A stretch of DNA of 64,000 bases, taken from NCBI GenBank assembly GCA_025360045.1, contig JANYCY010000052.1, forward strand, positions 114,189-178,188. The letters are read 5' to 3'. Below, piece by piece: positions 7,276-38,397 of this stretch. Every line of letters begins with the position of its first letter. The stretch's first letter is position 1. The position numbers and the translations under genes were made by a program. The stretch is from Janthinobacterium sp. (GTDB lineage Bacteria; Pseudomonadota; Gammaproteobacteria; Burkholderiales; Chitinibacteraceae). The notes below the pieces were generated by a model. That model ran no database searches and was not told where the DNA came from. It was given only the letters and a program-made list of their open reading frames with translations.

Positions 7276-8115
7276 TTACAAAATCGGCCGCATCTGCGCC
7301 TTGCTAATATAGTGCTGCTTCATCTTGTGCTGAGCATAGGGGTAAAGCTTCATGACCTTTTCCACATATTCTCGTGTTTCAGGATAGGGTGGCACGCCAC
7401 GGTAGCGGTCTACCGCTTTTTCCCCTGCGTTATAGCTTGCCGCCACCAGCACCACATTGCCTTGGTAGCGATCGAGCAGCCAGCGCAAATAGCGTACGCC
7501 GCCTCTGATATTTTGGCTGACATTAAACGCATCCTTCACATTAAAACGCTCGGCAGTTTCAGGAATCAGCTGCATCACGCCTTGCGCCGATTTAAGCGAT
7601 AAAGCCTGCGGGTTGAGCTGAGATTCCACCCTTGCAATACTCAAGGCAAATTGTGGATCAACATCGTGCCACAAGGCAATTTGCTGCACGATACGAGCAA
7701 TTTTCTGCTGACTGGCATTCAAGGCGGGTAAGGTGGGCACAGGCAACGGAGGTAATTTCTCTGGCTTTACATCGGCCAGAATACAAGGCGGCAAAACGCT
7801 TGCGCCTAATCTGATCGTTTCTAGCATCACTTGCGCACGCACATGCCCCTGCTCTGCCGCACTAGAAAAAAGCGTGGCGGCCATTTTTCTATTTTCTGGT
7901 ACGCCTTCACCAAAGGCATACAACATCCCCAAACGATACTGCGCTTCGGTAGAGCCTTTTCTTGCTGCGGCACAATAGAGCGCTGCGGCCTCCCATGCAT
8001 CCGCAGATTCAAGTTTGGCTGCAGTGGACAGGCTGTCTTTGATGACGGGGGCTTCACCCACATTAGGAACGGGAGCAAGGCTTATTGCCGCAGCAAACAC
8101 CAGACTAAACAGCAT
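7276..8115 (-). CDS. Lytic transglycosylase with Sel1-like repeats
   Basis: A periplasmic murein lytic transglycosylase, which cleaves the MurNAc-GlcNAc bond with formation of 1,6-anhydro-MurNAc. Start chosen at ATG 8115 because AGGAGG lies just before it; an upstream GTG at 8172 is also open. The 279-residue product has a signal peptide (~1-18), a Sel1/TPR-like pair of helices (EAQYRLGMLYAFGEGV), and an SLT domain (~130-265). The catalytic Glu is in ARVESQLNP, followed by SAQGVMQLIPETAERF and ASYNAGEKAV. The Sel1 part suggests a protein partner at the envelope. Transcribed separately from the haem operon. Confidence 0.85.
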   Translation of the reverse strand: MLFSLVFAAAISLAPVPNVGEAPVIKDSLSTAAKLESADAWEAAALYCAAARKGSTEAQYRLGMLYAFGEGVPENRKMAATLFSSAAEQGHVRAQVMLETIRLGASVLPPCILADVKPEKLPPLPVPTLPALNASQQKIARIVQQIALWHDVDPQFALSIARVESQLNPQALSLKSAQGVMQLIPETAERFNVKDAFNVSQNIRGGVRYLRWLLDRYQGNVVLVAASYNAGEKAVDRYRGVPPYPETREYVEKVMKLYPYAQHKMKQHYISKAQMRPIL

Positions 8116-8287
8116 AAACCCTCCTAAAAGGCACCCAGCGCACCTACTTACACGCGACAACTTACAAGACACACAAGCAAGTCTACGAGCTTATGCCTGA
8201 TAAATAAGGTGAGTAGCAAAATCAGACCAAGGGATACATCGCCAGCTAAATACGCAACCTTGTAAGCTTACTCATCAACGCCCCCTA

Positions 8288-9166
8288 TCAAGTCATCGGC
8301 CTTGCACGCATAAAATCAAGCAGGATTCTTACTTTGGCGGGTAAATAGCGCGCGCTCGGATAAACGGCATAGATGCCGCCCGCAGGCATGGTCCATTCGG
8401 GCAAAAGATGCACCAAACGCCCCGCCGCCAGATCTTCGGCCACCATAAAATCCGGCAAAACCGACAAGCCCGCTCCGTTTCTAACCAGCGCCAATACAGA
8501 AGACGGCGCGCTGGCCCGCATCACTGCCCGCATTCTGACCGTGCACGATTCATCACCATGATTAAATTTCCAAGTCAGCGGCGCTTGCAGCCGCGTCATC
8601 GCCACCCAAGGCAGCACGGAAAAATCTTGGGGGTGAGTCAGCGCGGGGTACTTCGCCACACACAAGGGAGACGCCACCACGCATTCGGCAAATTGGGCTA
8701 GCTTGATGGCGTGCAGGGCAGAATCCTGCAATCGCCCCAAGCGAAACGCCACATCAATCCGCTCGGCCAAAAGATCGAGCACCTCATCTGTGGCGAGTAA
8801 TTCAATTTCAAGCTGAGGATGCAAAGCAGCAAACTCCGCCAATAGCGGGGCCAACACCGCGCCTGCGTAATCCACTGGCACAGTAATGCGCAGCAGGCCC
8901 GATGCTTTCACCTGCCCAAGCCGATCAAGCGCCTCATTCGCTGCCAGCAACAGCGGAGCAATATCGGCATAAAGCTGCTCGCCAATTTCGGTAAGCAGCA
9001 CTTTGCGCGTACTGCGCGTCAGCAGCGCCACCCCAAGCTGTGACTCCAACTTACTGATTTGCTGACTCACCAAGGATTTAGCCATCCCCAGCCTATCGCC
9101 AGCCGCCGTAAACCCACCCGACTCCACCACGGCCACAAAAGTGGCGAGGCGATTTAAATCCAACAT
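8288..9166 (-). CDS. LysR-family transcriptional regulator
   Basis: A 292-residue LTTR. The N-terminal winged helix-turn-helix (~1-60: FTAAGDRLGMAKSLVSQQIS) binds DNA. The remaining ~200 residues form the periplasmic-binding-like effector domain (GLLRITVPVDYAGAVLAPLL). LTTRs often control a divergent neighbour. Here the divergent genes are the DsbA-like protein (9.6 kb) and NAD(P)-binding protein (10.3 kb), but an R3 repeat lies between them. Effector unknown. Confidence 0.85.
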   Translation of the reverse strand: MLDLNRLATFVAVVESGGFTAAGDRLGMAKSLVSQQISKLESQLGVALLTRSTRKVLLTEIGEQLYADIAPLLLAANEALDRLGQVKASGLLRITVPVDYAGAVLAPLLAEFAALHPQLEIELLATDEVLDLLAERIDVAFRLGRLQDSALHAIKLAQFAECVVASPLCVAKYPALTHPQDFSVLPWVAMTRLQAPLTWKFNHGDESCTVRMRAVMRASAPSSVLALVRNGAGLSVLPDFMVAEDLAAGRLVHLLPEWTMPAGGIYAVYPSARYLPAKVRILLDFMRARPMT

Positions 9167-9240
9167 AAGGCTGTTCCGTTTATTGGTTTATGAAATAGGG
9201 CATTGGTCCCGTATGAACTAACCAAGCTAAAACACAATGA

Positions 9241-9500
9241 CTACGCTCTCTGCATGGGGCTTTTACCCTCCCCTTGAAGCACGCCGAAGCGAGGAACAAG
9301 CGGGCGGGGTTTCTTTGATGCCTGTCTGAGCGAAGCGAGTTCCGCAGCCGCCGCTCGATTGTCCGCAGTGAGGGGTTTCGTGCGTTTGGGGTTGCGGCTT
9401 TGGTTCTTTTCTTGGCCGTTCAAGAAAAGAACGCCCCCGCGGTGGCTACCGCTCCTAAATTAACGTGCCGAAGGCACTAAAAAGATCTTTTTGAATTTTA
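9241..9500 (-). repeat. R3 MITE-like repeat, incomplete copy
   Basis: About 260 bases matching the R3 family in reverse orientation: CCTTGAAGCACGCCGAAGCG, then CGATTGTCCGCAGTGAGG, then TTTCTTGGCCGTTCAAGAAA, then GTGCCGAAGGCACTAAAAAG. The terminal inverted repeats of the full-length copies are missing. It occupies most of the LysR/DsbA intergenic region (9167-9612) and probably separated an older divergent promoter pair. No credible coding sequence. Confidence 0.75.
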
Positions 9501-9612
9501 GCCCCCCTACCCTACATTGTTCCATATTTATAAACATTCAATTCTTAATTGGCGTATTTATCTAATCAATCAACACAGGCAAGATAGCAACATATTCTTT
9601 AGGACACACAAC

Positions 9613-10227
9613 ATGCTTCATCTCTTATTTGATCCTCTTTGTGGTTGGTGTTACGGCGCAGCGCCGGCGCTTTCTGCTTTAAAAGCACACACAAACCTGA
9701 AATGGCAGTTGCACCCAACGGGACTTTTTTCCCATCCGCAAGCGATGAATGCAGAGATGGCAAGCTACTTTTGGAGCAACGATCAGCGTATCGCCAAAAT
9801 GACTGGCCAAGAATTTAGCCAAGCGTACAAAGACCATGTTTTAGCTGACTTAGATACTCCCTTTGATTCAACGCCATCTACCTTGGCCTATTACCTGATT
9901 AGTCTAGCTGTGCCCGAGCAAGCGATTGATGTGCTACACCGTGTGCAGCAACTACGCTACGCCAAAGGCACGCAAGAAGCGGCGGCCTTTATTGAGCTAG
10001 CAGTGGAATTTGGTCTAGATGCCGAGCAGTTTGCCCAAGACTTTGCCGCAGGCTGGCCAAAAGAATTACGCGCTATAACACAGAACGCTCAAACTTTAAT
10101 GCAAGAAAATGGCTTGCGCGGCGTACCCACGCTGCTATTACAAAAGGGCGATCAACTCTCTGTCGTTCCTAGCTCTTTGATGTACCAAGACCCACAAGAT
10201 TTAATTGATTTTGTAGCAAAGCAGTAA
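9613..10227 (+). CDS. DsbA-family (FrnE-like) thioredoxin-fold protein
   Basis: A 204-residue cytoplasmic thioredoxin-fold protein with the redox motif CGWC at residues ~10-13 (FDPLCGWCYGAAPAL). It has a helical insertion typical of DsbA/FrnE proteins and a cis-Pro loop (RGVPTLLL). Start chosen at ATG 9613, preceded by AGGA. An upstream TTG extension (9517) would put unlikely residues before the strand. No signal peptide, unlike periplasmic DsbA. It is followed 41 bases later by an NAD(P)-binding protein; the two and the divergent LysR gene could form a redox-stress unit (inference). Confidence 0.8.
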   Translation: MLHLLFDPLCGWCYGAAPALSALKAHTNLKWQLHPTGLFSHPQAMNAEMASYFWSNDQRIAKMTGQEFSQAYKDHVLADLDTPFDSTPSTLAYYLISLAVPEQAIDVLHRVQQLRYAKGTQEAAAFIELAVEFGLDAEQFAQDFAAGWPKELRAITQNAQTLMQENGLRGVPTLLLQKGDQLSVVPSSLMYQDPQDLIDFVAKQ

Positions 10228-10268
10228 TAAATCCGCTTCATACACTGATATTTAAACAAGGAATCACC

Positions 10269-10907
10269 ATGAAAATCGCAATCATCGGCGCAACAGGTTA
10301 TGTCGGCTCTAAACTCTTAAACGAAGCACTTGAGCGCGGCCATCAAGTCAGCGCCTTGGTACAAAACATTGCCAAACTGCCTGCTCACGCAGCGCTTACT
10401 GCCGTCAAAGCAGATGTCAACGACGAAGCCACACTGACTGCCCAATTAGCGGGCCACGATTTGGTCATTAGCGCATTTAGCGGCCATGCGGCTGGTGATG
10501 TTTACCAATACTTTGTTGATGGCTTTCAGCACATTCTAAACAGCGTAAAAGCTTCGGGCGTGCCACGTTTTCTCGTCGTTGGCGGCGCTGGCAGCTTAGA
10601 AGTCGCCCCTGGCGTGCAAGTAGTAGACACCCCCAGCTTTCCTGCCGAATGGAAAGGCTCGGCACTCGGTGCACGCACCGCACTAGAATTACTGCGCAAA
10701 GAAAGCGCGCTGGACTGGACACTGCTCAGCCCATCTGCCCATTTAGAGCCAGGCGCACGCACAGGTGAATTCCGTTTAGGTGGCGATCAGCTGCTTGTAG
10801 ACGCTCAAGGTGAAAGCCGTATTTCGGTAGAAGACTTTGCTGTAGCGATGCTCAATGAAGCAGAAAACGCCCAGCACAGCCGTCAACGCTTTACCGTAGG
10901 CTACTAA
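10269..10907 (+). CDS. NAD(P)H-binding Rossmann protein (NmrA/YwnB-like)
   Basis: A 212-residue atypical short-chain dehydrogenase. It starts with the glycine-rich dinucleotide motif GATGYVGSKL (residues 7-16), followed by the acidic turn in the KADVNDEATL segment. It resembles YwnB/NmrA-like flavin- or quinone-oxidoreductase relatives. An AAGGA ribosome site precedes the ATG. Likely co-transcribed with the DsbA-like gene. Substrate unknown; the call is to family only. Confidence 0.75.
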   Translation: MKIAIIGATGYVGSKLLNEALERGHQVSALVQNIAKLPAHAALTAVKADVNDEATLTAQLAGHDLVISAFSGHAAGDVYQYFVDGFQHILNSVKASGVPRFLVVGGAGSLEVAPGVQVVDTPSFPAEWKGSALGARTALELLRKESALDWTLLSPSAHLEPGARTGEFRLGGDQLLVDAQGESRISVEDFAVAMLNEAENAQHSRQRFTVGY

Positions 10908-10940
10908 GCTAGTGCTTCAGCCTACCCAGCTGACCTAAGC

Positions 10941-10975
10941 AATTGGCTGCTCATCCCAACGGGTGAGTAGCCAAT
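10941..10975 (+). terminator. Strong hairpin after the DsbA-like/Rossmann pair
   Basis: Arms AATTGGCTGCTCATCCC and GGGTGAGTAGCCAATT pair over about 16 positions around a 3-base loop. It lies 33 bases after the stop and before the exporter gene. There is no good T-run, so it may terminate only partly or be an mRNA 3' hairpin. Confidence 0.5.
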
Positions 10976-11143
10976 TCGGCTTGCTATTTACTACCACGCC
11001 ATCCACAGAGTGAAGTATAAAAATTCAAACAATAAGCGATAGCGGACATTAATCTTATAAATCGCTAAATATCCCGCTATTTGTACGCACTTAACTCAGC
11101 GTACAATCACCCACCCTTACCTTCTTTTAAAAAAGCCTAAAGC

Positions 11144-12334
11144 ATGCGCTATTTCCCCCCTTGGCTCATTTTACTTGGCGCACTGACTGCGCTTGGGCCA
11201 CTTTCTATTGATATGTATTTGCCAAGCTTCCCTGCTATTGCGCACAGCTTAGGCAGTAACACCGGCTCGGTTCAGCTTACCCTTGCTAGTTTTTTTACAG
11301 GACTTGCTTTAGGGCAGGCCATTTACGGGCCATTTAGCGATCGCTTTGGCCGTAAACCCCCACTTTACTTCGGTCTGATTGTGTATATTTTGGCCAGCAT
11401 CGGCTGCGCCATCGCTAGCGATGTCAATCAACTGATCGCATTGCGATTCTTACAAGCCCTAGGTGGCTGCTCAGGCATGGTCATTGCCCGTGCTGTGGTG
11501 CGTGATCGCTGCAATGTGCAGGATTCTGCCAAGGCTTTTTCTACCCTGATGCTCATTATGGGCTTAGCACCAATTCTGGCCCCACTTGCGGGTGGCTGGA
11601 TGCTTGGCGCCCTTGGCTGGCGCGCTATTTTTGCCTTTCAAGCCTTATTTGCTGCAGGCTGCTTACTGAGTCTACATTTTAGCTTTAAAGAAAGTCACGA
11701 CACTCAGCACAGCAGCGCACTGGAATTGGGTAAGGTATTAAAAGGCTATGGCAAGCTTTTGCTCGATAAAGAATATATGCACCACACTATGACCGGCGCT
11801 TTTATCATGAGCGGCTTTTTTGGCTATATCGCCGGATCGCCCTTTATTATTATCGAGTTATTTGGTGTAGCGCCTGAAAACTATGGCTGGGTATTTGGCT
11901 CCAATGCAGCAGGTTTTATTATCAGTGGTCAGCTCAATGCGCGATTACTTAAAAACAACCGCACCGAAGCCATTGTCAAACACGCCCTTTGGCTGCCCGC
12001 ACTTTCTGGCTTGGGGCTATTACTGTTACAAATCACCGGCCTGCTGAATTTCCCACTGCTCTTAATTGGCTTATTTGTGTTTATTGCCAGCACCGGCTTT
12101 ATTACGCCCAATACCGGCGCAATGGCGATGAAAAACCATGGTAAACAAGCTGGGCTAGCCTCCGCACTGATGGGCACGCTGCAATTTGGTTGCGCCACCC
12201 TAGCAGGGCTGATGATCGGTGTATGGCACGACGGCACGCCACTGCCGCTACTCACCCTCTTGGCCATTTGTGGTGGCGGAGCGTGGCTGCTTAATCGTGT
12301 AGGGCATCCTAGTTTGGTCGTGGTGAATAGCTGA
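11144..12334 (+). CDS. MFS drug exporter, Bcr/CflA family
   Basis: A 396-residue inner-membrane transporter with 12 hydrophobic segments. The first segment ends in LSIDMYLPSFPAI, a hallmark of the Bcr/CflA (DHA1) subfamily. Motif A is GPFSDRFGRKPPL between TM2 and TM3, and RFLQALGGCSGMVIARAVVRD matches TM4/motif B. Members export bicyclomycin, chloramphenicol, sulfonamides or dipeptides by proton antiport; the substrate here is unknown. Own transcription unit, with repeat DNA downstream. Confidence 0.85.
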   Translation: MRYFPPWLILLGALTALGPLSIDMYLPSFPAIAHSLGSNTGSVQLTLASFFTGLALGQAIYGPFSDRFGRKPPLYFGLIVYILASIGCAIASDVNQLIALRFLQALGGCSGMVIARAVVRDRCNVQDSAKAFSTLMLIMGLAPILAPLAGGWMLGALGWRAIFAFQALFAAGCLLSLHFSFKESHDTQHSSALELGKVLKGYGKLLLDKEYMHHTMTGAFIMSGFFGYIAGSPFIIIELFGVAPENYGWVFGSNAAGFIISGQLNARLLKNNRTEAIVKHALWLPALSGLGLLLLQITGLLNFPLLLIGLFVFIASTGFITPNTGAMAMKNHGKQAGLASALMGTLQFGCATLAGLMIGVWHDGTPLPLLTLLAICGGGAWLLNRVGHPSLVVVNS

Positions 12335-12410
12335 TGTTTGTAGGGTGGGCACATTTATCGTGCTCTATACGCACAATTTAAGCCAAAAACGTAACAAAAA
12401 AGCTGATTTC

Positions 12411-12535
12411 ATAGGGTGTGCAAGTCGTTTTTCTTGCGCACCGCCTCTGCCGCACAATGACAAGTATTGAATCATCGTAGGGCGGGTGAAACCCGCGTAT
12501 TTTTCAGCATGACTCGCGGGTTTCACCCGCCCTAC
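12411..12535. repeat. R1 half-copy followed by an R2 palindrome
   Basis: The 363-base gap between the exporter and alaS holds an R1 fragment (ATAGGGTGTGCAAG, then TTTCTTGCGCACCG; 12411-~12458). After it comes a perfect R2 palindrome (12477-12535) with 21-base arms, GTAGGGCGGGTGAAACCCGCG and its complement, around 17 bases. The remaining 12536-12697 is unremarkable and must contain the alaS promoter. No gene seen. Confidence 0.8.
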
Positions 12536-12697
12536 ACAAGCGGCTTGCACACAAGCTATCCAATCCCCGCCAGCACACCGTCAGTTCCCCCTCCTAAGCT
12601 GCAAGCTCACCCCCTTATTAACAGGGCGCTACCCTGATGGTGGGCTTTCATTTAGAATCAATACTTTCGTATTCACCGAATACCGACCCTACACACT

Positions 12698-28470: not shown

Positions 28471-29670
28471 ATGCTTAATGCCGCCCAACGCGATCTAGTC
28501 CGCGCTACCGCTCCCGTCCTCAAACAACACGGCGTTGCGCTCACCACCCATTTTTATGCGCGGATGTTTCAATACAATCCAGAACTAAAACAAATTTTCA
28601 ACGAAGGCAATCAGCAGTCCGGCGCGCAGCAACAAGCACTCGCCATGGCCGTGGCGGCTTACGCCGAACATATCGACAACCCTAGCGTGCTGGCCCCTGT
28701 GCTCACCCATATCGCCAATAAGCACATCAGCCTTGGCATCCGCCCAGAACACTACCCGATTGTGGGCCATCACTTGCTGGCATCTATCCGTGAAGTATTG
28801 GGCGCCGCTGCCACAGATGAGTTAATTGCAGCATGGGCCGCCGCCTATGGCCAGCTTGCCGATGTATTGATTGCCGAAGAAGCGCAGCTCTATGCCGCTG
28901 CCGCGTTTAAGCAAGGCGGCTGGACAGGCTGGCGTGGTTTTGTGGTGGCAAAAAAAGAACAGGAAAGCAGTGAAATCACCTCCTTCTATTTACGCCCCGC
29001 CGACGGTGGCAGCGTACCCGATTACGCACCAGGCCAATATATTTCGGTAAGAATGTTTGTGCCGGAATGGAATCTGATGCAGCCGCGCCAATACAGTTTG
29101 TCTGATGCCCCGGGCAACGATTACCTACGCATCTCAGTAAAGCGCGAACAAGCTGACAATATCATCGGCCAAGTGTCTAATCTGCTGCATAACACGATGG
29201 GAGTCGGCGATGTGATCGACCTCGCCCCGCCAGCGGGTGATTTTGTACTGCATCAGGATCGCACAGGCCCAGTGGTTTTAATCAGCGGCGGCGTGGGCAT
29301 TACCCCGATGATGGCGATGCTAAAGCACTTGGCAAAAACCGGCAGCGATAGAGCCGTGCGCTTTGTACACGGCTGCCGCAATAGCGACGTGCATGCTTTT
29401 AAAGACGTGGTCAATCAGCTAGCGGTTAAAGAATCCAGCTTTGAAAAGACAATGTTTTATGGAGAAGCCTGCCCAAACCACAGCCACGACTATCTAGGCT
29501 ATGTGGACTTGGCTAAAATCGCCGACCGCGTGATTTTGCCCGACGCCGATTACTACCTCTGTGGGCCACTGGCCTTTATGCAAGCCCAGATCAAATCATT
29601 ACAAACCATGGGAATTAGTGCAGAGCGGATTCATGCTGAGGCATTTGGGACTGGGGGTGTAGCGGCTTAG
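28471..29670 (+). CDS. hmp: Flavohaemoglobin, nitric oxide dioxygenase
   Basis: A 399-residue cytoplasmic enzyme converting NO plus O2 to nitrate with NAD(P)H. The globin domain (~1-140) has the proximal His in ANKHISLGI (~85) and a distal pocket including FYARMF. The FAD domain (~150-260) carries RQYSLSDAPG, and the NAD domain (~265-399) carries GGVGITPMMAML and a terminal EAFG-type motif. Length matches E. coli Hmp (396). Single gene with its own operator-like palindromes upstream. Confidence 0.95.
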   Translation: MLNAAQRDLVRATAPVLKQHGVALTTHFYARMFQYNPELKQIFNEGNQQSGAQQQALAMAVAAYAEHIDNPSVLAPVLTHIANKHISLGIRPEHYPIVGHHLLASIREVLGAAATDELIAAWAAAYGQLADVLIAEEAQLYAAAAFKQGGWTGWRGFVVAKKEQESSEITSFYLRPADGGSVPDYAPGQYISVRMFVPEWNLMQPRQYSLSDAPGNDYLRISVKREQADNIIGQVSNLLHNTMGVGDVIDLAPPAGDFVLHQDRTGPVVLISGGVGITPMMAMLKHLAKTGSDRAVRFVHGCRNSDVHAFKDVVNQLAVKESSFEKTMFYGEACPNHSHDYLGYVDLAKIADRVILPDADYYLCGPLAFMQAQIKSLQTMGISAERIHAEAFGTGGVAA

Positions 29671-32751: not shown

Positions 32752-32912
32752 AAACCTATCAAACTAAGCTTTTGTCTCAAGATGAATCGACATTTCTTAG
32801 GGTTCACAACGACGTAGTCGGAGCGCAAAGAGCGGTGCGCAAGAAAAACGACTTGCACACCCTACGAAATGGTAGCCTCCCCCTTTGTAAAAGGGGGATT
32901 GAGGGGGATTTT
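32752..32912. repeat. R1 copy plus CCCCCTTT hairpin between convergent genes
   Basis: A diverged long R1 (ACCTATCAAACTAAGC to TTGCACACCCTAC, 32752-32865), then a block with CCCCCTTTGTAAAAGGGGG (about 32879-32897) followed by ATTGAGGGGGATTTT. The latter hairpin is close to the 3' ends of both ratB and the histidine kinase gene and may help terminate one or both. Confidence 0.7.
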
Positions 32913-35900
32913 CAAACCACCTTCAGCCCCGCATTCATTTTCTGCAAAATAGGCAGGGCTTCGCCAAAGTTGAACCTTTCCAAGGCAATTCTAAAAGCGG
33001 CAAACTCGGCCGGATCAAAAAAATCACTCATCGCATCGCCGTATTTACCCATCACGGTTAAGGCTTCTGCATCCATATCGTTGAGCAAACGCTCTAGCCA
33101 AGTTAATAAATTTTGCAATTCTTTAATCGGCATTTTTCCTGATGGCTTAGGGGCATTGGCAAAGGCATCTTCGCCATTGATATAAACCATCACTTCATGC
33201 ATTAACACATTTAAGTGTGTATCCAAAATCAACAAATCTTCTTTGACCTCATTGATTCCGCCACCGTGAGAAATTGCCGACTCAATACGCCCAGCAATTG
33301 CAGCCACCTTCACCCCGCCCAAAGTGGCACTCAGCCCTTTTAGGGTATGAGCAAAGCGCAGCGCAGGCTCTAATTCATTATTGAGCAAGGCTTGATTAAT
33401 CCGCATTACGCAATCACCCTCACTACCACTAAATTGCTTGAGCATTCGCAAATAGAGCGAGGGATTATTCATCACAAACCCTAAACCCACCGTCACCTCT
33501 AGCTCAACAAAGGTGGCTTGCGCAGCAGGGGCAGCTGGTGCCTCTGCGACGGGCGCGGGTGCGACTACGGCAGGCGTCGTTTGCAATGCCACAGCGACCG
33601 GCATTTCTAAATTTTTTTCTGCCGTGGGCCGTGCTAATACATCCACGCATTCAACTACCGCCTCCACCAGCAATGGCGTAGTCACGCCCGATGGTGAGGT
33701 GATCCGCCAGTGTTTTAAGCAGCTAAATAGCTGCATGGGGTCGATAGGCTTAGAGACATGGTCATTCATCCCCAAGTCTAAGCAGCGCGCCCGCTCTTCC
33801 ACCATGGCATGCGCCGTCATGGCAACTAGTGGAATATGGCTATAGCGCGCATCGGCACGAATACGTTTGGATGCCTCATAGCCATCCATCACCGGCATCT
33901 GCATATCCATTAGGATTGTTTCAAAGTAAGTAGGGCCAAATTCTTCCAATCGATCTAATGCTTCTTGTCCGTGATTGGCCACCACGACTTCTACCCCAAC
34001 CATCGCCAGCAGTTCAGTGGCAATTTGCTGATTAATCGGGTTGTCTTCTGTTAGCAAGACCCGCATCCCCTTCAGCCCTGCGCCTTCTTCGTCTTGAGGC
34101 TCTTTATTACTCAATGCCTCATCATCATCACGTGCAAATAGGGATATCAGGCAATCCGTTAAGGACGACGCATTCACGGGCTTAGTCAACACTGCGCTAA
34201 TATTCAGAGTCTGAGCCTGCACATAAATATCTTCACGATCAAATGCAGTGACAATCACAATTTTTGGCCCACCCTGCGGCAACGCTTCTTGGATTTTTTG
34301 TGCGGCCTGAGCCCCATCCATATGCGGCATTTGCCAATCGAGCAAAATCAAACCAAATGGGTCACCGCGCTGCTGAGCCGCAATAGATAACTCCACGGCG
34401 CCTTGCCCCGAGCCTACATTTTCAATTCGCACATCAAACCGTTTTAATACTTCGATAATAGCGAGACGCGCATGTTCATGATCATCAACCACTAACACAC
34501 GCATATTATTAATTTCATTGGGCACGGCCCGCTTTCTAATTTCTTTTTCTTCTACACCAAACCAAGCCGTAAATACAAAATGACTCCCTACTCCACTTTG
34601 ACTTTCCGCCCAAATCCGTCCACCCATTAATTCAACTAAACGCTTACTAATTGAAAGCCCTAGGCCCGTACCGCCGAATTTACGCGTGGTACTGCTATCG
34701 GCCTGAGTAAAGGGCATAAATAATTTGCCAATTTGCTCGGGCGTCATACCAATACCGGTATCCCTCACTCTAAATTCTAATTGCACCTGCTCTTGATTTC
34801 TTTCCAAGCAGGTAATGGTGATTTCCACATCCCCCGCTTCGGTAAACTTCACCGCATTATTCACCAAATTAATCATAATTTGGCTTAACCGTAAAGAATC
34901 CCCCACTAGGCAAGGCGGAATATCTTCTGGATGATGAATAACAAACTCTAATCCCTTTTCAAATACCTTTTGTGTCGTTACTGTACATACATTATTAAGT
35001 ACTGTTTCTAATTCAAATGGGGCTAATTCGATATTCAGTTTACCGGCTTCAATTTTGGAAAAATCTAAAATATCATTAATGATACCCAGCAAAGATGTGC
35101 CCGCATGATGGATTTTAGATAAATAGTCTCTTTGCTTAGGCGGCATTTCTGCTTTTAATGCCAAATGTGATAAACCAATGACCGCATTCATTGGCGTGCG
35201 GATTTCATGGCTCATATTAGCTAAAAAACTAGATTTTACTGAGGCGGCTTCTTCTGCGCGGGTTTTGGCTAATTGCAACTCTTGCTCAACTATTTTACGC
35301 TGGCTAATATCACGCGCAAATAAAGTGCCGCTGCAATGCCCATCCATATTTAATACCGTCATGCCGACTTCGATCGGCAATAAACTACCAGAGCGATTGC
35401 GTGCCAGTAATTCCCAAAATCGAGCCGTGGTAATTCGCGAGGTAACTTCACTTAAGCCTCGATCTAATACCAAAGGCAAATCCCCATCGCCTTCAATATG
35501 AATCAAGCTTTGTAATTTTAATCCAACCACTTCTGCAGCGGCAAAACCAAAAGTGAGCTCTGCAGCCCGGTTCCAATCCGTAACGCAACAATCTTGGTCA
35601 AGCAAGATCACTGCAATGGGCGCGCCTTCAATCACGGCTTTTGATTGCATTTCACTTTGCTGCAAAGCCATGGCTCGGCGATCCACCTCTTGCTCCAGCC
35701 CCTGCTTATGCGCCGCCAGCTCGGCATTACTCACCGTTAACACGGACATTAATTCATCCCGTGTTTGTTCATTGAAAATGTTTTTTACCTGCAAAATACA
35801 ATCGACTTCTTGATGGCCGACCCGAAACTCAAGCTGCACTGCACCATCGGGCAAAACCTGTTGCACATCAAAAAAGGCCGATAAAGATTGCTTTGCCCAG

Positions 35901-36130
35901 CCCCCTTCCACATGCACCACAAAACAAAGTGCCTCATTATCAAACCCCACCGGCAACGCGTGATGAACGGTTGACTGCCGAACAAGCTGACAAAGAGAAT
36001 AAAACCCCGTAAGCATATAGTCACTACGCATACGGCTCAGCTGCAAGCACTCTAGCGCTCGGCGCAATTTATCACGAGCGATGTAAACACTTTCTTCTGA
36101 GCGCAAATCCAATAGGCCTAGTTCAGTCAT
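32912..36130 (-). CDS. Hybrid sensor histidine kinase linked to the stressosome
   Basis: A 1072-residue protein. An uncharacterised N-terminal region with a coiled segment (~1-165) is followed by PAS (~170-290), HisKA with phospho-His in [13 protein letters not shown] (~320), HATPase (N box [26 protein letters not shown]), and two receiver domains (acceptor Asp in [11 protein letters not shown] and [11 protein letters not shown]). An Ala/Pro linker and an HPt domain ([13 protein letters not shown]) complete it. No transmembrane segment, so it is cytoplasmic. The ATG overlaps the TGA of the rsbX-like gene, making it the last gene of the stressosome operon and the likely signal output. No response regulator gene is adjacent. 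Confidence 0.88.
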
Positions 36131-36705
36131 AATGTGCACTTTATCGCCAAACAAGTGGCATCGTCGTACAACTTCCCAAAACGGCTGAGCAAATTCGCTA
36201 CCATTTGATTCAGGGTATTTCTGCGCTCCAACAGCATTTGATCCGCAGCAATATGCTCCTGTATGCCATCCGTCGCCAAAATAAAAACATCATCACTCTT
36301 AAAGCTAAATGTTTCGATACGAATGCTGCGCAAAATAATCCCTAAGGTGCCCGCCTGAGCAGGAAAGGTATAGCAATCCTGCCCCAGCTTGCGCATCACC
36401 GTATTACCGATAGTAATACAGCGTGCATTGCCATCATCACCCAAAAAAGCCATCGTAATGGCCGTTCCTCGGGAACCACGGATATGCTCATGCAAGGCCT
36501 TGAGCATCAATTCAAGATCTTCACTGCTATTTTCTTCTAACCACTGCTCACACAGCCTAGCCAACTCATGTGCCTCTGGCCCATGCCCCAGTACATCCAA
36601 AATACCGACCAATACGCCATGCTCCATTTTCTTGATAAAAGTGCCATCACCGCACACCACCTCACCAAAACAAGGGCGTAAACAACGCGCATATTCAAAA
36701 TACAT
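36127..36705 (-). CDS. rsbX: RsbX-like PP2C/SpoIIE phosphatase
   Basis: A 192-residue single-domain PPM phosphatase. Metal-binding residues are in VVCGDGTF (~18-25) and GILDVLGHG (~34-42), with the C-terminal [12 protein letters not shown]. In stressosomes RsbX removes phosphates from RsbR and RsbS, resetting the signal. It begins 3 bases after the rsbT stop and its own stop overlaps the kinase start. Sequence is distant from Bacillus RsbX; the assignment combines fold and gene order. Confidence 0.8.
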
Positions 36706-36708
36706 AAG

Positions 36709-37125
36709 CTAAATTTTCCACTTACGAAACAGGACGCGTGTACCCATTTCTGGCTCTGAAGTGATTTCAAATTCATCCGCTAAACGACGCGTCCCCGGCA
36801 ATCCCAGCCCTAATGTCCCTTTGGTGCTGTAATGCTCGGACATCGCCAGTGCCATATCTTTAATCCCTGGGCCTCGATCTTCCGCCATCACCTCCAGCCC
36901 CTCATGATTTTTTACCACCACCCAAGAAAAGGACATCATGCCCTCGCCGGCATACTTCACAATATTGGTGGCCAGCTCAGAAGCCCCTGTTGTTATTTCT
37001 GTGACCGCTACAGTAGAAAACCCGCATTGTTTAGCCAATGAAAACGTATAGGCCACCAGCATGGCTACATCCGCTTCATTGCGTATTTTTCTCCAAACCG
37101 TTGCCATTTCCATACTAGGCTTCAT
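36709..37125 (-). CDS. rsbT: RsbT-like switch kinase (anti-sigma-factor kinase fold)
   Basis: A 138-residue GHKL ATPase/serine kinase of the RsbT type. N box: GASELATNIVKYAGEG. G1: EDRGPGIKD. G2: KGTLGLGLPGTRRLADEFEI. RsbT phosphorylates RsbR and RsbS and, when released, activates an output partner. ATG 37125 overlaps the end of rsbS by about 11 bases; ATG 37113 (MEMATVW) is an alternative just after the rsbS stop. Length fits Bacillus RsbT (133). Confidence 0.85.
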   Translation of the reverse strand: MKPSMEMATVWRKIRNEADVAMLVAYTFSLAKQCGFSTVAVTEITTGASELATNIVKYAGEGMMSFSWVVVKNHEGLEVMAEDRGPGIKDMALAMSEHYSTKGTLGLGLPGTRRLADEFEITSEPEMGTRVLFRKWKI

Positions 37126-37483
37126 GTAATAAATCCAAAGCTTGTCTAATCGTTTGACAACCACGTAACGCAGATAAATCACTATCTAGCGCCGCCAGCC
37201 CAGCAACAACACCGGGCCTGAACCCAATAAAAACGGTTTTTGCCCCCATAATTTTTAACATCTGAGTAAGATCGACCAACGCTGAAAATCCATCCACATC
37301 CAGCGAGTCCACCTCCGACAAGTCCAGCATTACCCCTTTTGCCGCCACTTTGGTGACCTGTTGCAACAGCTTGCTTTGCAAAGCGATCATCGTAGAGGGC
37401 CGCAAATCACTCTGCACGCAGGCAAGTAATGCATCTTCAACAACAGAAATCGCCACCCCCCCTCCAGAATCACGCTCATCCAT
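37115..37483 (-). CDS. rsbS: RsbS-like STAS scaffold protein, phospho-acceptor Ser replaced
   Basis: A 122-residue single STAS-domain protein. The diagnostic strand-helix turn is LDLSEVDSLDVDGFSAL. Aligned with the STAS consensus (LDLsgvxxiDSsGlxxL), the position of the usual phospho-Ser (Ser59 of Bacillus RsbS) is Val63 here, preceded by the conserved Asp. Ser60 or Ser67 might substitute, but this is not known. RsbS forms the stressosome core with RsbR and sequesters RsbT. The gene starts 11 bases after rsbR and overlaps rsbT. Confidence 0.82.
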   Translation of the reverse strand: MDERDSGGGVAISVVEDALLACVQSDLRPSTMIALQSKLLQQVTKVAAKGVMLDLSEVDSLDVDGFSALVDLTQMLKIMGAKTVFIGFRPGVVAGLAALDSDLSALRGCQTIRQALDLLHEA

Positions 37484-37494
37484 TACATCCCCCC

Positions 37495-38397
37495 CTATAC
37501 CTCATCCACTCTTTTCATTCTGATGCCCACGCTCTTAAATGCCTGCTCTAGCGCATCGCGCAAAGTGGCATGAGTCGTCATCCCTTCAATATCAATCCCT
37601 AAATGCACAATCGTTTGGGCAATAGAGGGAGAAACACCCGAAATCAGACTGGTACAGCCCATTAAGCGGGTGGCCTTCGTGATTTTAATTAAGTGATTAG
37701 CGACGCCCGAGTCCACAATCGCCACGCCTGAAATATCCATAATAAAGACGCGAGAGCGCGTTTCAGCAATTTTATTCAGAATGGCAGCCATAATATCTTG
37801 AGCACGCTTGGAATCAATAATTCCCACCACGGGCAGCATTAAAATATCCTGCCAAATCATGGTGACTGGGGTGGACATCTCCATTAATGCGCGACTTTGC
37901 TCATTAATCCGCTCATTAATCAAACGCGTGTAGGTTTCCACCACAATCGAGGTATCTAGATGCAGGAGTTTAGTAATAGAGGCTACGGCTTTGCCATATT
38001 CTTCGCTAAACAAACCGCCGTCGTACAGCTTTTTAGTAAACAATACAAAGGAGTAATTCATCCCCGCAAAATAGCTAGGTAAAGACAAGCCAATTCGCGC
38101 ATGCGTTTCGCCCAAACGCCGCCGATCCTCAATATATGAGTCATCCAATACGCCTGCAAAGAAACGCTTCCAATAAGTGATTTGGGCAGATTGAGCCCGT
38201 TTTTTAACCTCATCATTCGCCATTAAAGATTGATACTCAGGCAGCTCTCGCATCCAATCGTAAAAATGAGTTAAATATTCACCCATTTTTGGCACCACCA
38301 AAGCACCATATTTACGCACCACCTCAAGATCAGCATCATCAATATCATGCAAACGCATGACATCCTTAAATGATGTTTGATTGGTATGCTCATGCAT
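37495..38397 (-). CDS. rsbR: RsbR-like stressosome sensor with N-terminal globin-type domain
   Basis: A 300-residue protein, start ATG 38397 (AGGGGA 6 bases upstream; ATG 38403 and GTG 38412 also in frame). Residues ~1-160 form an all-helical sensor-globin-like domain with a candidate proximal haem ligand His99 in LGETHARIGLSLPSYF. Residues ~175-295 form a STAS domain with VFIMDISGVAIVDSGVANHL, keeping a Ser at the phospho-acceptor site, and a second Ser in GIIDSKRAQD. Haem-containing RsbR of Vibrio senses oxygen; the same is inferred here. First gene of the five-gene operon rsbR-rsbS-rsbT-rsbX-kinase. Confidence 0.85.
   Translation of the reverse strand: MHEHTNQTSFKDVMRLHDIDDADLEVVRKYGALVVPKMGEYLTHFYDWMRELPEYQSLMANDEVKKRAQSAQITYWKRFFAGVLDDSYIEDRRRLGETHARIGLSLPSYFAGMNYSFVLFTKKLYDGGLFSEEYGKAVASITKLLHLDTSIVVETYTRLINERINEQSRALMEMSTPVTMIWQDILMLPVVGIIDSKRAQDIMAAILNKIAETRSRVFIMDISGVAIVDSGVANHLIKITKATRLMGCTSLISGVSPSIAQTIVHLGIDIEGMTTHATLRDALEQAFKSVGIRMKRVDEV

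Follow-up and report, generated by a model that had tools for sequence, protein, structure and literature searches.

How a stressosome passes its signal to a two-component system is the question raised by an operon at 32912-38397 in the window, by which we mean the whole stretch of 64,000 nucleotides (nt) analysed here (GCA_025360045.1, contig JANYCY010000052.1). The window is Iodobacter DNA by its sequence; of the four rsbT loci most similar to its own (88-95%), three come from Iodobacter and one from a metagenome-assembled genome labelled only Proteobacteria. In Bacillus the output of the stressosome is sigma-B via RsbU. The window operon consists of rsbR, rsbS, rsbT, rsbX and a large hybrid histidine kinase gene, and RsbU, RsbV, RsbW and sigma-B were not found in it by the open reading frame (ORF) list and Pfam, with no search aimed at sigma factors, which agrees for RsbU and RsbV/W with what an earlier sequence-only reading of this DNA had reported. 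We consider it fairly probable that the operon encodes a globin stressosome together with a hybrid kinase whose first ~105 residues are a dead RsbT-type GHKL domain that docks the kinase on the stressosome, and that activation, likely by falling oxygen, feeds a two-component phosphorelay. What is new here is the recognition, from sequence and models, of the kinase N-terminus as a predicted pseudo-RsbT domain; the operon type itself is already known. The kinase and its parts are as follows.

32912..36130, minus strand: hybrid histidine kinase of 1072 aa, probably the output (Pfam: PAS, HisKA, HATPase_c, REC, REC, Hpt)
35816..36130, minus strand: putative pseudo-RsbT domain, residues 1-105, a predicted GHKL fold without nucleotide-binding motifs (AlphaFold (AF2), Foldseek, VIA, hhalign)
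35639..35761, minus strand: signalling helix, residues 124-164, a predicted coiled coil into PAS, common to the Vibrio and Chromobacterium kinases
35300..35641, minus strand: PAS, residues 164-277 (Pfam)
34568..35236, minus strand: HisKA and HATPase_c, residues 299-521 (Pfam), phospho-acceptor H308
33722..34480, minus strand: two receiver domains, residues ~551-665 (D598; edges approximate) and 691-803 (D742) (Pfam)
33260..33448, minus strand: Hpt, residues 895-957 (Pfam), H928

All the phosphosites are present, namely H308, D598 (LLDWQMP), D742 (LMDMQMP) and H928 (AHTLKG), and the domain order PAS-HisKA-HATPase-REC-REC-Hpt is that of the hybrid kinase found after rsbX in Vibrio-type modules. 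The kinase follows rsbX in 9/9 Iodobacter genomes, and the earlier proposal that it is the likely output was supported.

The N-terminal domain of the probable output kinase

The N-terminus of the kinase has no Pfam match, and a sequence search of solved structures with its first alignment gave no match above chance. In AF2 models of two relatives, made independently, it takes the GHKL fold of RsbW, SpoIIAB and RsbT, with the predicted order strand-helix-helix-four strands. The structure matches of these models (Foldseek, VIA) were GHKL proteins, namely RsbW/SpoIIAB/SiaB kinases; the VIA lists are silent on families that they do not list and no family was excluded on that basis. The likeness to these kinases is one of predicted fold, whereas the Iodobacter domain is without nucleotide-binding motifs and is fused to a histidine kinase. 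The Chromobacterium stressosome, with the same rsbR-rsbS-rsbT-rsbX-kinase order, has the same N-terminal domain, modelled independently.

A first hhalign profile built from 9 Iodobacter sequences only gave P 0.064 against RsbT, which is not significant, in the same register as the one finally kept. With 14 rows and the globular part only, P was 1.4e-4, or 7.1e-4 against the RsbT rows alone, and the best score in 300 column permutations was 20.1 compared to the real score of 31.0. When more L112-type rows were added P was 1.1e-5 against the RsbT families, and when two sequences found blind (loci L164 and L169) were also included it was 1.8e-7. The significance comes from the widening of the alignment by the Chromobacterium-group rows, the L112-type rows and the blind hits, and the homology to RsbT is strong only with this deeper alignment and across the first ~70 residues.

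The deeper profile, A7, gave six hits at E 0.01 or better over 399 genomes of the order, three of them already rows of A7, and four hits, one of them the window, over 369 genomes of the class; as a rule only the best 10-12 first-look candidates per genome were scored, and absence is therefore not proof. The new kinases below 1e-5 were those of G738 and G186, and both lie in stressosome operons: L164 with globin-RsbR, RsbS, RsbT-RsbX and the kinase, and L169 with RsbS, RsbT, RsbX and the kinase, where the contig begins. By its sequence the N-terminus of the L169 kinase bridges the pseudo-domain and RsbT: across one and the same set of residues the pseudo-domain profile gave it 29.0 bits and the RsbT profile 19.3 bits, both higher than all 2000 shuffles. 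That of L164 scored 30.9 bits with the pseudo-domain profile (0/2000 shuffles) and 7.9 bits with the RsbT profile (1/2000). The weaker A7 hits in G514, G606, G009 and G142 (E 0.003-0.007) were treated as chance because no stressosome genes were seen in the stretches examined around them (12 kb for G514 and ~3 kb for the others). G440's family gave 4/61 hits, and three of these match the helix alone (positions 115-160).

Some results weigh against this sequence support. Taken one at a time, Iodobacter sequences give poor scores with the RsbT profile and those of the Chromobacterium group give none, and the Vibrio kinase matches the profile in the signalling helix (59.9 bits) but its globular part reaches 0.6 bits, which is below the best shuffles. 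The comparison with the Vibrio stressosome kinase, proposed as a check in the sequence-only reading, was thus borne out for the helix and not for the globular part, and since only the helix is detectably common the Vibrio N-terminus was for now rejected as a member of the family. The same reading had staked its proposal on the co-occurrence of the kinase N-terminus with rsbT, and this held: rsbT is in the same operon in 16/16 members of the N-terminal family whose DNA was read, a count that excludes the Vibrio kinase and proteins without DNA context (P0002, P0003, P0009 and P0014-P0018 among others). Together, the alignments and models support homology of the kinase N-terminus to RsbT and a GHKL fold. 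The ~165-residue N-terminus had been put forward as an uncharacterised region and a candidate for RsbT docking; it still stands as a docking candidate, but it now appears to be a degenerate RsbT-type GHKL domain, and its partner may be either RsbT or the RsbR/RsbS lattice. As far as the listings and excerpts of open-licence PMC papers show, a stressosome output kinase headed by an RsbT-like or GHKL domain has not been described, and our searches for the stressosome in Iodobacter or C. violaceum returned no paper.

In the hhalign register the N-box Asn of RsbT aligns with Leu49 of the window kinase, and neither the A3 and A7 rows nor L164 and L169 have Asn at this position. At the places expected for G1 (DxGPG), the lid and G2 (GLGLPG) these motifs are absent, and in the Chromobacterium-group rows a DAPGMG comes after the final strand of the model. 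Given the loss of the N-box Asn and of the G1, lid and G2 motifs, the domain should not bind ATP, and residues 1-105 are predicted to be a pseudo-enzyme and not a member of the RsbT/RsbW type as a kinase.

RsbT-type domains are also fused ahead of a kinase core in nine rsbR-S-T operons, which are Noviherbaspirillum L017, the cyanobacterial L013 and L014, Phaeobacter L149, and L151-L155. These differ from the Iodobacter kinase in that the N-box Asn is kept in 6/9 and both G1 and G2 are seen in L013, L014, L017, L154 and L155. L151, L152 and L153 are half-degenerate: they have Val, Ser or Ala instead of the N-box Asn and have lost the G1 Asp, but the rest can still be recognised, whereas Iodobacter has also lost the lid. 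The series from intact, to Asn lost, to lid lost suggests a stepwise path from enzyme to adaptor. In 14 operons (L013, L017, L111, L112, L149, L150, L151-L157 and L164) RsbX and an RsbT-type domain are in one open frame; a separate RsbT is also present in 12 of the 14, and in L112 and L164 the fused RsbT is the only one seen. By these sequences the RsbT-like domain appears to have been attached repeatedly to other proteins of the stressosome, and some of the attached copies are without the catalytic residues. The lattice is where RsbX acts, and the simplest common reading is therefore that such domains would be lattice-targeting attachments.

The sensor, RsbS and RsbT of the operon

The other genes of the operon and the site at its 3' end are as follows.

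37495..38397, minus strand: rsbR (Pfam Protoglobin 6.5e-26, residues 8-158, N-terminal, and STAS 8e-14)
37115..37483, minus strand: rsbS, a single STAS domain (Pfam 7.4e-7; best match 7o0i_a, RsbS)
36709..37125, minus strand: rsbT, GHKL serine kinase (Pfam HATPase_c_2 2.1e-10, scan from 37146)
36127..36705, minus strand: rsbX, SpoIIE/PP2C-type phosphatase (Pfam SpoIIE 1.4e-9)
32878..32897, no strand: perfect 20-nt palindrome CCCCCTTT..AAAGGGGG, 3' of the operon

The ORFs and Pfam agree with the earlier description of a complete rsbR-rsbS-rsbT-rsbX and hybrid kinase operon, with all five ORFs tightly packed on the minus strand. The spacing between rsbR and rsbS is 11 nt and that between rsbT and rsbX is 3 nt, rsbS and rsbT overlap by 11 nt provided that rsbT starts at ATG 37125, a start picked by comparison with a relative, and an ATGA is common to the end of rsbX and the start of the kinase gene. 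The five genes are in the same order in all nine Iodobacter genomes examined and, therefore, the operon is not an assembly accident. The window has the R-S-T-X order of the Vibrio-type module, with an RsbT that carries the GHKL motifs, and the assignment to the Vibrio type made from the sequence alone was supported by Vibrio sp. THAF191c (L147), which has the R-S-T-X-kinase order, a globin RsbR that is 62% identical, the same kinase domain order and the signalling helix, and differs in that its globular kinase N-terminus is not recognisable by sequence as a pseudo-RsbT domain. Among published stressosomes the operon falls, by sequence, into the Vibrio-type family, whose outputs are two-component systems. 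Globin RSTX (rsbR-rsbS-rsbT-rsbX) modules with eleven kinds of downstream modules have been described, with Chromobacterium named among the carriers (Heinz et al. 2022, PMC9237108, cited here, like the other papers below, from excerpts), and the Iodobacter operon as such thus adds one more member to a kind already described.

RsbR has the N-terminal globin and C-terminal STAS domain of the globin-type module, as had been read from the sequence, and His99, the candidate ligand named then, is the only His within residues 45-145. In the match of RsbR residues 9-154 to 1or4 residues 33-178, which are of equal lengths, His99 falls at HemAT residue 123 (the alignment itself was not displayed), which we take to be the haem His of HemAT, and by this alignment His99 sits at the haem-ligand position. 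RsbR also matched the RsbR chain 7o0i_B with 420 bits, 7o0i being presumably the V. vulnificus stressosome complex. The RsbS has Val (Asp-Val-Asp) at the site of the phosphorylated Ser of Bacillus and Listeria RsbS. The RsbR of V. brasiliensis is a haem-binding protein that raises RsbT activity when its Fe(II) is unligated, and the RsbS phosphosite is likewise not conserved in that species (PMC4976288). By analogy, Iodobacter RsbR would sense oxygen via haem on His99.

The motifs of the window RsbT are intact (N box SELATN, G1 DRGPGI and G2 GLGLPG) and it has Val in place of the helix-1 Arg19. For Bacillus RsbT a role in binding RsbU is ascribed to R19, R23 and N24 (PMC12143880). Among operons with other outputs the helix-1 position of RsbT was readable in 21 and was Arg in all of them (7 with RsbU_N, of which three were assigned by BLAST only, 9 RsbT-kinase fusions and 5 plain kinases), whereas Arg was present in 0/13 operons with the pseudo-domain kinase type, where it is Val in twelve and Leu in one. 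These 13 are 5 Iodobacter (5/9 RsbTs were read), 4 of the Chromobacterium group, L112, the blind-found L164 and L169, and Vibrio, which was placed there by synteny only; L008 was dropped because its Arg19 was unreadable, and L012, L016, L018, L108 and L148 were unclassified. Arg19 and Lys21 are both conserved in the pseudo-domain (14/14 rows). In a 37-row RsbT tree the 11 rows that have a kinase of this type all fall in one clade (92/86) together with L108 and L148, which have no pseudo-domain kinase in view, and all 13 are without Arg; outside this clade Arg is found in 22/24 rows, the exceptions being L012 (Val) and L016 (Ser). Because the Arg-less RsbTs form one clade, we do not claim independent co-evolution, and the absence of Arg19 may be one historical loss and not a repeated one.

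L148 (the end of a Flammeovirga plasmid) and L108 have globin-type RST (rsbR-rsbS-rsbT) sets whose outputs are beyond the record or not adjacent. A useful contrast case is L009 (Oxalobacteraceae, 7507-12634), a globin stressosome with Arg19 in its RsbT and an RsbU_N-PAS-GAF-GGDEF-EAL output.

The response regulator and the surroundings of the operon

The sequence-only reading had remarked that, unlike in Vibrio, no response regulator or diguanylate cyclase gene follows the kinase. No response regulator gene was seen directly 3' of the kinase in 9/9 Iodobacter; the next gene is a convergent RnfH-like gene in 8/9, the window included, and in the ninth (L103) a same-strand 349-residue gene ~1 kb past the kinase, judged not regulator-like by reading with no domain scan. 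The regulator of the relatives is, however, of another kind than had been supposed: a REC-HD-GYP gene lies directly after the kinase in all four Chromobacterium-group loci (L041, L116, L117 and L118) and in Vibrio L147, an assignment that was Pfam-checked in L041 and L147. The nearest HD-GYP regulator elsewhere in the genome (58%, G000 C94) adjoins its own kinase, and it was rejected as an orthologue since in a 28-row tree it falls in a 15-row group (92/96) that leaves out all four stressosome regulators. V. vulnificus mutants without rsbRSTX and those without the D1 kinase have similar behaviour, and breakdown of cyclic di-GMP (c-di-GMP) has been proposed for D1-D2 (PMC10014275), which fits an HD-GYP protein as the regulator.

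The HD-GYP regulator and kinase of G000 C94 (L100, 719-2752 and 7123-10674) lie ~4 kb from a gene that by eye is oligopeptidase A-like, and in Chromobacterium L116 (10262-12298) a similar gene is ~1 kb from the stressosome operon; this is possibly a trace of old synteny. Genome-wide there were two SpoIIE matches, RsbX and, in what looks like another partner-switch set, one REC-SpoIIE-GHKL protein (L037, G000 C71, 4004-6039), which is beside a STAS-like gene (by eye) and near chemotaxis-like genes.

Upstream, a terminator-like hairpin (38684-38660) lies between the operon and a DUF4124 gene. Downstream, the operon had been said to end at a repeat; this is the perfect palindrome at 32878-32897, the sole such site in the window, and its exact 19-mer is absent from all 169 loci compared. 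A gene that by eye is flavohaemoglobin-like (28471-29670) is ~3 kb from the globin stressosome in the window and the same neighbour is seen in L101.

Proposed coupling of the kinase to the stressosome

A probable course of events is that RsbR and RsbS build the STAS lattice and oxygen is read by the RsbR haem on His99, as Vibrio homologues would suggest, and that, judging from the protein families, the lattice is phosphorylated by RsbT, whose motifs are intact, and reset by RsbX. The kinase has no RsbU_N to receive RsbT and would bring its own degenerate RsbT-like domain, the likeliest partner of which is the RsbR/RsbS lattice, where it may act in competition with RsbT or after it; the chief alternative partner is RsbT. 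Release or rearrangement would be relayed by the 41-residue helix (124-164) to the PAS domain and HisKA, and the phosphoryl group would pass from H308 to the receivers and to the Hpt H928. From there it may pass to a response regulator encoded elsewhere, probably of the REC-HD-GYP type that adjoins the kinase in the Chromobacterium and Vibrio loci, and the final output would then likely be the breakdown of c-di-GMP. The docking partner, the direction of switching and the final response regulator are what we infer in this scheme.

That the pseudo-RsbT domain pairs with RsbT itself is unlikely in our view. A GHKL-GHKL heterodimer would form, and free RsbT would replace one protomer of the kinase dimer and shift the coiled coil, as with the RsbU linker. 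SpoIIAB/RsbW-type domains are known to dimerise, and the domain is encoded together with rsbT in every one of the 16 loci read. Bacillus RsbT stiffens a coiled-coil linker (PMC12143880), and a similar predicted helix follows the domain in the Iodobacter kinase. However, V. vulnificus RsbT and D1 showed no positive interaction (PMC9237108), which is weak evidence, the helix-1 Arg19 that is part of the known RsbU-binding face is missing from RsbT in 13/13, and the RsbT-like domains fused to RsbX in 14 operons point to the lattice, where the substrates of RsbX are. It is quite improbable that RsbT instead transiently phosphorylates the kinase, a possibility raised for the Vibrio D1 by Heinz et al. 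(2022, PMC9237108), with the N-terminus only a dimer or substrate platform. The intact motifs of RsbT would allow this, but it leaves unexplained why an RsbT-like fold is kept before these kinases in several lineages. Moreover, we know of no phosphorylation site for RsbT on the kinase.

More improbable still is an ordinary hybrid sensor that is merely co-transcribed and reads its own PAS signal while the stressosome acts elsewhere. The kinase does have its own PAS domain, and the part that resembles GHKL may be a remnant, as its identity to the eight other Iodobacter is 65-83% compared to 79-93% for the remaining kinase. Against this stand the order kept in 9/9 Iodobacter and in other groups, the retention of the domain despite the loss of all catalytic motifs, and the similar phenotypes of V. 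vulnificus deletions of either module (PMC10014275). A divergent RsbU_N four-helix domain at the kinase N-terminus is hardly credible, and at the level of prediction it is refuted. RsbU_N outputs do come after rsbX in other stressosome operons (L008, L011, L015 and L109, with L009 just under the cut-off), and these outputs, like Bacillus RsbU, Moorella and the RsbU_N-kinases, resemble the Iodobacter kinase in having an N-terminal module before a coiled coil and effector, encoded after the RST genes. Their module, however, is a four-helix bundle that receives RsbT (PMC12143880), whereas that of Iodobacter is itself RsbT-like; there was no PF08673 match, the predicted fold has strands that a four-helix domain does not, and the structure matches are GHKL.

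The reading that we favour, a dead RsbT-type domain that docks the kinase on the stressosome, may be extended, though somewhat doubtfully, to beta- and gammaproteobacterial globin stressosomes in general. In these a dead copy of RsbT would be the output plug: RsbT would have given up its RsbU-binding face and the kinase would have acquired a degenerate RsbT domain, so that the kinase is a lattice client switched by occupancy with no free RsbT messenger, and the RsbT fold would be a general lattice-targeting module for kinase, phosphatase (the RsbT-RsbX fusions) and output. On how the signal passes from a Gram-negative stressosome to a two-component system, the V. vulnificus study found neither an RsbU_N domain in the output kinase nor an RsbT-kinase interaction (PMC9237108). 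A degenerate RsbT domain on the kinase would be a concrete and testable part of the answer and, if this is true, the released messenger known from Bacillus would give way to a client kinase that docks directly.

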